Source: Haliclona indistincta (Eukaryota; Porifera; Demospongiae; Haplosclerida; Chalinidae). From it: a stretch of DNA of 64,000 nt. The notes under the pieces were generated by a model. It saw nothing but the letters and a program-made list of their open reading frames with translations. It searched no databases and was not told the origin of the DNA. The translations under genes and the position numbers were made by a program. Positions 21,156-24,095 of the stretch are shown here, one piece after another; position 1 is the stretch's first letter, and every line of letters begins with the position of its first letter. The DNA is taken from assembly GCA_964017065.1 (NCBI GenBank), contig OZ024792.1, forward strand, positions 4,149,754 to 4,213,753. The letters run 5' to 3'.

Positions 21156-21239
21156 ATGCTGCCGACACTACGAATACTCATTGCACTCCTCTTTTATCAG
21201 CTGATTATGTCCGAAGATGTAGAAATAAATCCCGGTCCT
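21156..21239 (+). other. 2A-like translational recoding peptide overlapping a signal-like leader
   Basis: Codons 21216-21239 encode DVEINPGP. The break is expected between the last Gly and Pro. The preceding 20 residues begin at an ATG and include about 12 hydrophobic residues, the arrangement reported for 2A-like signal sequences in sea urchin NLR-type genes. The motif is exact and in frame with the downstream exons. Activity is not shown. Confidence 0.85.
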
Positions 21240-24095
21240 AAACTTGGTATGTTTTCTGCAGACTAATAATCTATCTATGATAATAATTATTATTGTCTTC
21301 GAATTTGCTGCATGCTGAGAGGGCGTTCTCAGTGCACATATAATACATGTACGTACGATTTATGTATATAAAAATAACCGTTTTGGATTAGCGGGCCCGT
21401 TAAAGCTGGCTTTGAAACAGTCTAGCCAGTTGAAACGGGCTGGTTTGTTTGCTCGAACTGTTTTAAAAATGGGCCTGCAGTTGCAAATTGGTCTGTAACA
21501 TATTTATACTTGGTTTCACTGCTTGGTTTCAGCTCATTTGTTATTGCATTTTGACAGAGTCAGAACCAAAAATTTCAGAACTTGAGTGCTTTAGAAAAAG
21601 GGATAGATCTGGCAGTATTCACATTATCGAAAAGATTGCTGACTTCCCACATAGCAAATGTGTAGAGTTTTCACGCAAGCTACTCAATGACCAGACCCAG
21701 ACCATTACATTCAAAGACAGAGTGTCATTTGTTTTTGAGTTGTTTCGAAGATGGTTGAAACAGCCTACCAGTCAATTATTTAGCACAACGACAAGGCCAC
21801 CACCACCACGCTCATGGAAAGTTCTTGCTAAGTGTTTGGAAGAATTTGATGGAGTATTAGCAAGAGAGATAAGAGAAAATTGTGAAAATGGTGATTGTTT
21901 ATATCACGTTATTAATTAATATAATTATTTTCTTTCTTTAGTTAAGATGCCTGTTGACCATTCTAAAAGTAGACGTCGATTTTATACCAATACATGTAAA
22001 GAGAAAAGAAAATTCAAGTAAGTGAAGAATTTTGCTCCTAATACAAGCTTGTAGATCTACGGTTATCGTAGGTCAGAAACTTTTTGCCTATAAAATTTTC
22101 GTCTGTTAAATTTCGCATCGTTTAATTTTCGTCACTAGCTACGCGTATATTACAAATGCGCATTGTGTGTTAAATTTTCGTCGCAAGGATGGACGATGAA
22201 AATATTCTAACGCCGAAAATCTCCCAATCTACGGTATGTAATTTTTGTTAGGCAACAGTACCACCAAGACTCTTTTCACCATTCAAGAAAAAGAATTTTG
22301 AGCCCAGTTTGTGGACTACAAAATCTTGGAAATCAGTGCTACATGAATGCAACCCTCCAATGCCTTACACATACTCACATGCTCAGAGAATGCTTATTGA
22401 AGCTTAAACCAAGTTCAGCAATGCCTTCCTCGCTACGTGAGCCTTCTATAAGAATAATTCTAATTAATCATTATACTGATCAGAGAGCAGCCATCAAGGT
22501 CTAGGTAAGCAAATAGTTACAGCATACACAGAGTTTCAGGAAAAGATGTGGCAAGAACAAAGAAAAGCTGTAACACCAATAAACCTTAAGGTACCGTGAA
22601 TGATCCTTTGAAGCTGAAATGTGCTCATCAATTGTATGGGTGTGACACTATAAAACTTTTACACTCTATATTATTTTTATGACACAACAGCAAACAGTTG
22701 GTCATTTTGCTCCACGATTTGCTGGCTATGGTCAAGAAGATGCACAAGAATTTCTGACATTTCTATTGGATGGTCTTCATGAGGGTGTGAACCAAATAAA
22801 GGAGAAGAAGTATGTCAGTATGTCCATTGAGAATGGTGAGAGTTGGACTGACAAGGTATCTCACTTATCATGATTTGATAACCATGTATCACTATACTGA
22901 TTTTAAAGGAAATGGCAGATGAGCTATGGAGCAGACATTTGCTCCGCAACAAATCTGAAATAGTTGAATTATTTCATAGTCAGATCAAGTCTGTGCTGAA
23001 ATGTCTCTCATGTACTAAGGTATGATACAGTGTTGTTTGTGATTGTAGTTAAACATCGACTCTTGTTATATGTAGGCTACTAGGACTTTTGAACCAGTGA
23101 TACAGCTAACACTACCAATTCCAGGCAATGTATGATGGATAAAAGTTAAAATTCAAATTTTTTTCAGGCACATGTTAGCGGTAGAGAGATTTGTTCAAGC
23201 AAAGTAGACTCTGTTACTGTTTATGATTGCTTGAATCTTTATGTCAAGGAAAAGGCTCTCAAATGGTGATAAATGAGAAACTGTAGTTGTTATGAAATTT
23301 GCAATAGGGTATGTGAGCATTGCAGAACTAGTACCGACTGTGTACAGAAGTATGACATTTGGAAGCTACCTCCAATTCTTATCATTCACTTAAAGAGGTT
23401 TACAGTGACAGGGTGAGTATTACAGTGTCTTCATTAAGTAATATTTAGACCATACCAGGTGACTTTCCGACCGAGTGCTTGCTATTTTGACAAAGTGTGC
23501 GTTAATAAAAGTGTGCATTAAGAACTTTATCCGCGAGGTGCATTAATAAAAGTGTGCATTAAGAACTTAATCCGCGAGGTGCATTAATAAAAGTGTGCAT
23601 TAAGCTATTTAATGCACACTTTTTGAGCGATCTGATTGGTCGAAAGTCACGTGGTATGGTCTAATAATTAGTTTATTGTCCTATTAATTTTACAGGAGAG
23701 AATGTCATAAGGTGTACACTAATGTGGACTATCCAAACAAGTGGGAATACCCTTATACTAGTGTTATAGTATTGTCTTTAGATTTGACCTTTCAGAATGC
23801 CAGCAGCATCTGGACAAAGCAAATACTCAATACGAATTGTATGCAGTAATTAATCACAGTGGAATGCTCTATGCTGGTCATTGTACGTCATTGTCTTATT
23901 ATGCAGTATTTTACAATACTTTTGTAGATACTGCCTATGTAAAAGAAGGAGAAACATGGCTTCTGTGTGATGATGAACATGTATCAGAAGTCTCAAGTAG
24001 TCAGGTAAACAACATCACTCGGAGTAAAAATAATAATTAATTTCTTATTTTTACAGACTCCAAATGCATATGTTCTCTTTTACAAGCAAACGTAG
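21156..24095 (+). CDS. 2A-like signal peptide - Death-like domain - ubiquitin-specific protease
   Basis: Fourteen phase-consistent exons: 21156-21246, 21558-21890, 21942-22017, 22252-22436, 22484-22590, 22691-22855, 22909-23019, 23076-23129, 23168-23265, 23308-23412, 23696-23740, 23782-23882, 23928-24004, 24057-24095. Exon 1 encodes a hydrophobic leader (LRILIALLFYQLIM) ending in DVEINPGP, an exact match to the 2A consensus D(V/I)ExNPGP. Exon 2 looks like a Death-fold domain (FELFRRWLKQP... PRSWKVLAKCLEEFDGVLAREI). The rest is a complete USP: Cys box GLQNLGNQCYMNATLQCL, GQEDAQEFL, CLSC and CEHC zinc-type pairs, LPPILIIHLKRF, and His box YAGHYTAY. It should remove ubiquitin from substrates. 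If 2A skipping occurs, the leader is released and the enzyme stays cytosolic; if it fails, the leader may target it to the ER. Confidence 0.88.
23444..23664. mobile_element. MITE in an intron of the 2A-Death-USP gene
   Basis: Inverted ends TTAGACCATACCAGGTGACT (left) and AGTCACGTGGTATGGTCTAA (right) lie next to TA, with one base of slippage at the left edge. The inside holds about three direct repeats of GTGCATTAATAAAAGTGTGCATTAAG with GAACTTAATCCGCGAG. A subterminal GATTGGTC block links it to the elements at 1789-1999 and 45762-46076. It is entirely intronic (intron 23413-23695). Confidence 0.75.

Follow-up and report, generated by a model that had tools for sequence, protein, structure and literature searches.

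The 64-kb stretch of Haliclona indistincta DNA analysed here (hereafter the window) contains a predicted 14-exon gene for a USP-type deubiquitinase. The first exon of this gene encodes a short hydrophobic leader that closes with a 2A (StopGo) octapeptide, and the second a likely Death-fold domain. In the reading that we favour, with a probability slightly above one half (about 0.53), the leader is mostly skipped during translation, which would leave a likely cytosolic, Pro-started Death-like-USP protein.

The gene model was derived from the sequence alone, with exon borders picked by hand, and predicts a product of 530 aa; all borders are GT-AG and the frame ends with a stop at position 24095 (Table 1). 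The product of exon 1 is MLPTLRILIALLFYQLIMSE-DVEINPGP-KL, plus one base of a split codon, and its donor joins the exon 2 acceptor (tgacag/AGT) in phase 1. An earlier note on this DNA had proposed that the leader exon is phase-compatible with the following exon and a complete USP, and this was confirmed: the frame is open through all 14 exons, with the 2A octapeptide in frame with the downstream protein up to residue 530 of the predicted spliced frame. Since exon 2 contains no Met and Met144 lies behind the domain, the Death-like part, if made, requires a start in exon 1 or further upstream.

Table 1. Predicted exons and leader elements of the USP gene, with positions in the window.
Feature	Position	Strand	Description
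Exon 1	21156-21246	+	Start codon, hydrophobic leader, 2A octapeptide, two more codons, phase 1 donor TTG/gtatgt
Hydrophobic tract ILIALLFYQLIM	21174-21209	+	Kyte-Doolittle 12-mer, best 2.53
GAA (Glu), position p11	21213-21215	+	Gly in 184/189 genomic sites
DVEINPGP	21216-21239	+	Predicted skip between Gly (21234-21236) and Pro (21237-21239); mechanism as in passages of PMC12846837 and PMC4981915
Exon 2	21558-21890	+	Death-like domain without an in-frame ATG; both ends in phase 1
Exon 3	21942-22017	+	Basic linker; contains Met144, the first in-frame start past the leader
Exon 4	22252-22436	+	USP Cys box, Cys196 within GLQNLGNQCYMN
Exon 5	22484-22590	+	USP
Exon 6	22691-22855	+	USP, GYGQEDAQEFL
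Exon 7	22909-23019	+	USP
Exon 8	23076-23129	+	USP
Exon 9	23168-23265	+	USP
Exon 10	23308-23412	+	USP
Exon 11	23696-23760	+	USP
Exon 12	23796-23882	+	USP His box, His492 within AGHYTAY
Exon 13	23928-24004	+	USP, LLCDD; Asp508 via USP4 alignment
Exon 14	24057-24095	+	USP C-terminal end, stop codon

The USP part is full-length, matching the Pfam family UCH (PF00443) at E=2.7e-68 over profile positions 1-254 of 254, and the presence of Cys196, His492 and Asp508 completes the Cys, His and Asp boxes. Among solved structures, those of USP4 and USP15 are nearest, the best PDB match being USP4 (E=1.8e-70). NACHT is absent from the window product according to Pfam, and UCH stands behind the leader instead. 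When the 73 UCH matches in the genome were merged into 37 loci, only the locus in the window, which also takes in a second USP copy, was preceded on the same strand by a 2A site at a distance of up to 15 kb. Tail-to-tail with the USP gene, at 24257-25432 on the minus strand, a gene encodes a protein bearing ubiquitin-like and IBR domains; it is probably an RBR-type ubiquitin ligase, so that an E3-like gene would adjoin the deubiquitinase.

The exact D-V-E-I-N-P-G-P behind a hydrophobic leader, on which the earlier note was built, is indeed present, and holds the only NPGP in all six frames of the window. It conforms to the core octapeptide D(V/I)ExNPGP of 2A/StopGo elements, a pattern absent from 200 shuffles of the window (2-base blocks), and it ends a short hydrophobic N-terminal leader, i.e. 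an arrangement of the SpNLR2A type, 28 residues long through the skip-site Pro. The hydrophobicity score of this leader was equalled or exceeded by 2.1 % (5/243) of the ATG-started 20-mers on the plus strand of the window, a background which may itself contain the leader. Three upstream ATGs (21051, 21079 and 21125) precede the leader start and could compete with it if transcribed, which counts against our reading. On the minus strand, helicase ORFs at 16.6-20.9 kb, which we take to resemble UPF1, have their first Met near 20911, ~245 bp from exon 1, and a divergent promoter in common with the USP gene is possible.

The same leader type recurs throughout the genome. A D(V/I/M)ExNPGP-type pattern gave 189 matches in 144 Mb (46 contigs) and the reversed pattern gave none. 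Neighbourhood counts rest on 188 of these 189 sites: among the 102 NACHT matches listed, which stem from scoring 102 of 631 candidates and thus set a lower bound, a NACHT domain lay within 6 kb downstream on the same strand of at least 22 sites, upstream of two and on the opposite strand of none. A genome search with exon 2 of the window returned the exon itself and 38 relatives. For 25 of the 38, a 2A site lies upstream on the same strand at a distance of no more than 2 kb; for 0/38 was a 2A found downstream and for 0/38 on the opposite strand. Another 12 of the 38 are without a 2A within the distance searched, and this counts against our reading. In every pair read (24/24, covering 24 of the 25 pairs of 2A and Death-like exon), the splice donor GT lies exactly 7 nt past NPGP (two codons plus one base, phase 1), as it does in the window. 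When 2A sites of any kind are taken together, 45 of 66 distinct ones also have a GT at +7, in a set that omits the window and sites with identical flanks.

At least eight of the 25 pairs have a NACHT within 6 kb downstream among the matches listed, and Pfam adds a ninth (locus L047). Given this recurrence ahead of NACHT, leader and Death-like domain together resemble a spliced module belonging to NLR-type genes, a module that in the window stands before a USP. The link to 2A-NLR leaders suggested by the earlier note is thus borne out by at least 9/25 pairs just upstream of NACHT. That the module recurs genome-wide, with one pair standing before a caspase domain, was no part of that account. 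Counting against our reading, NACHT was found by Pfam in only five of the 14 non-Death ORFs tested behind 2A sites (L020, L024, L025, L027 and L047). Public sequences yielded no relative of the leader together with the Death-like part, which likewise counts against it.

Several individual 2A sites deserve description. The NLR-type locus L047 has a 190-codon open frame upstream of its 2A, with a second hydrophobic stretch, and the part released may itself constitute a separate protein. At L097 (C3:16090280-16091720), a degenerate 2A, DVHPNPGP, lies ~0.2 kb ahead of a Death-like exon containing a stop; a His as in this motif is a rare active variant according to passages of PMC12846837. At L007/L093 (G000:C1:10353916-10361400), a Helitron-type ORF (Helitron_like_N, PIF1, OTU) is preceded by a 2A leader, FFLLLISGDIEVNPGP. 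Further 2A sites are located within ~25 kb of contig ends (C2:6517, C4:7072, C4:15527939, C6:4339 and C9:9153204-9165984), and perhaps belong to subtelomeric genes or elements.

Death-like exons are also found next to caspases. A caspase domain lies less than 1 kb away (start to start) on the same strand for 6 of the 38 Death-like exons, the chance expectation for a Death-like exon near a caspase (within 5 kb) being ~0.06. Five of these six exons are on the C-terminal side and are without a 2A. At locus L107 (G000:C2:3860500-3862900), MESISVRLPTSLVLLLLMLSG-DVESNPGP, with its donor at +7, is followed on the same strand by a Death-like exon and then by a caspase domain (Peptidase_C14, E=1.3e-27); this order is known as an adjacency, and four acceptors fit the join from the leader to the Death-like exon. 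L107 thus resembles the window in its 2A, its +7 donor, a Death-like exon followed by an enzyme domain, and a leader of similar length (29 residues through the skip-site Pro vs 28) and hydrophobicity (2.47 vs 2.53), but it has Peptidase_C14 where the window has USP and it keeps the Gly before the motif.

That exon 2 encodes a Death-fold domain, as the earlier note had it, holds only in part. The window exon gives no match to the Pfam Death model (PF00531) at E<=1, and of 26 relatives only one is matched (at 0.026). When a profile of 26 exons was compared with one of 20 Pfam-Death exons from the same genome, the last three helices aligned with a modest probability of 35 % (E 4e-4); this probability stayed at or below 3.6 % in 60 controls with shuffled columns and was 1.4 % with the set reversed. 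In a single-sequence model of exon 2, six helices are predicted with low confidence (pLDDT 58.7). Exon 2 may resemble PF00531 in its predicted helices and its alignable C-terminal half, and differs from it in escaping the Pfam model. The company of NACHT and caspase domains fits a death-fold adaptor, and we term this likely Death-fold domain Death-like; the weakness of the Death assignment counts against our reading. Elsewhere in the window (54444-58359, plus strand), two similar ORFs lie in tandem, the second followed by a Death domain that PF00531 matches at E=1.4e-4, just under the cut-off.

The main departure of the window leader, not noticed in the earlier note, is the residue just before the Asp of the motif (p11), which is Gly in almost all genomic 2A sites and Glu in the window, its codon being one base away from a Gly codon. 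The other four non-Gly sites (three Arg, one stop) belong to one array of leader-like repeats at C4:10.64 Mb. The array at L091/L092 (G000:C4:10636800-10653200) comprises 20 short minus-strand NPGP frames in 16.4 kb, e.g. AILSGDIETNPGPIASDRS, with only one ORF of at least 150 aa, protein-kinase-like by eye, and possibly represents copied alternative first exons. The L-rich run of the window ends in SE instead of (A/S/C)G; in passages of PMC12846837, the latter ending is a trait of motifs 2 and 6, and is described as a preference and not an absolute requirement. The same passages report a strong preference for Gly at p11 when p12 is Asp, and state that mutating characteristic upstream residues almost always removed nearly all activity. 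With Glu where Gly is near-invariant, efficient skipping cannot be assumed, and weaker skipping of the window leader is predicted, but not certain, which counts against our reading.

The most serious alternative follows from this substitution, namely that the 2A is worn out: the change from Gly to Glu abolished skipping, and the leader is now a plain signal sequence, a membrane anchor or idle. The near-invariance of Gly in this genome, the single base that separates the two codons and the published Gly preference all speak for it, and we regard it as unlikely but deserving serious weight. In a tree of 38 exons (that of the window, 24 of the 25 that stand behind a 2A, L097 with its degenerate 2A and 12 exons without one), exon 2 of the window forms a long, deep branch (0.98), its placement being marked unsure. 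It shares at most 37 % identity with any other exon of the tree and at most 38 % with any relative found in the genome search. That the octapeptide, the hydrophobic tract and the donor position are otherwise intact over so long a branch suggests constraint on the leader and argues against decay. A USP in the lumen, moreover, would find no ubiquitin as substrate. Natural variation at p11 points in the same direction, since a cardiovirus-like StopGo group with His at this position is mentioned in passages of PMC12846837 that do not state its activity.

Less probable still, in our view, is that exons 1 and 2 are not joined to the USP in transcripts, and that translation of the USP begins at Met144 or its transcription at another promoter. 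A start at Met144 in exon 3 would yield a USP without the Death-like part, and the neighbouring USP copy (27718-31400, plus strand) has a different, repeat-rich N-terminus that is not 2A-Death-like, the two copies being alike only at 22310-22404 (93 %) and 22683-23023 (98 %; blastn, E<=1e-5). However, every junction across the 14 exons is GT-AG and in phase, and the donor position of the leader agrees with that in the 24 pairs elsewhere, both of which argue for a joined transcript. Finally, the leader exon could be selfish or passively spread by Helitrons or segmental copying, without a role in host protein fate, as a 2A lies 2.3-2.6 kb upstream on the same strand in 8 of 86 Helitron_like_N matches (0 downstream or on the opposite strand) and one 2A-preceded case reads through to Helitron, PIF1 and OTU domains, but this is very improbable given that before NACHT and caspase domains the leader returns with its donor position and next domain unchanged, and that the window's contig (C10) is without a match to Helitron_like_N, the only transposon class searched.

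Returning to a skipped leader in front of a Death-like-USP, the predicted transcript would be translated as follows. By the time NPG is reached, 27 residues would have been made, and the Gly-Pro bond is predicted not to be formed. The exit tunnel of the ribosome holds more than 27 residues, so that the leader would still be within it at the skip decision, which would fall before SRP could see the leader. By analogy with the sea-urchin leader, that of the window would come off as a short peptide, after which the enzyme would restart with Pro-Lys-Leu and remain cytosolic. There, the Death-like domain held in common could bring it to NLR-type sensors and caspases, where it would trim ubiquitin. 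On failure to skip, the hydrophobic leader would be retained and the enzyme diverted or sequestered; with Glu for Gly before the motif, the USP gene would leak more than its NLR relatives.

Plausibly, then, the deubiquitinase, the NLR-type sensors and the caspase act in one signalling circuit. A further step, frankly speculative and rather improbable as a whole, would be to see the StopGo leader and the Death-like exon as an exchangeable tag on a sensor (NLR), an executioner (caspase) and a brake (deubiquitinase): one translational decision would set the amount of cytosolic, co-assembling protein across the circuit, the change from Gly to Glu would tune the ratio of the brake, and the circuit would report the state of ribosomes or release factors, e.g. 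under viral attack. If sensors, a deubiquitinase and a caspase carry a common leader and domain, translational recoding would be linked to both ubiquitin editing and cell death. According to passages of PMC12846837, cellular genes rarely contain StopGo; with 189 sites, 45 of 66 at one donor distance and at least nine pairs before NACHT, cellular StopGo would become directly testable in this genome.

The principle is already known from the 2A-NLR leaders of the sea urchin. Among the literature matches listed, none describes a 2A-Death-USP arrangement, a 2A leader on a deubiquitinase or a caspase, or a fixed pair of 2A and Death-like exons, and no paper reports 2A leaders in sponge NLRs. A study by Rao et al. 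2025 (Cell Rep. 44, 115822), which is said to survey eukaryotic 2A sequences, lay outside this comparison. A 2A leader is likewise unmentioned in the passages considered from PMC12909245, on sponge NLRs, and PMC8195603, on Death and TRADD-N domains.

With the viral L-rich 2A/StopGo sequences (F2A; motifs 2 and 6 in passages of PMC12846837), the window shares the core octapeptide and an upstream hydrophobic run; it differs in that its 2A is N-terminal and not between two proteins, and that it is without the (A/S/C)G ending. Closer is SpNLR2A, as described in passages of PMC4981915, whose 26-residue leader (28 in the window) is likewise hydrophobic and N-terminal, ends in D(V/I)ExNPGP and belongs to immune-type proteins; it skips at ~80 % by a qualitative estimate in a cell-free system and, when unskipped, acts as a signal sequence. 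In contrast to SpNLR2A, the protein in the window is a USP deubiquitinase with Glu for Gly before the motif, and the leader of the present genome is on a separate exon that is paired with a Death-like exon. As in the USP4/USP15/USP8/USP2 family, the catalytic domain in the window is complete. The N-terminal extensions of that family are DUSP/UBL and MIT domains, whereas the enzyme in the window has a 2A leader and a Death-like domain instead.
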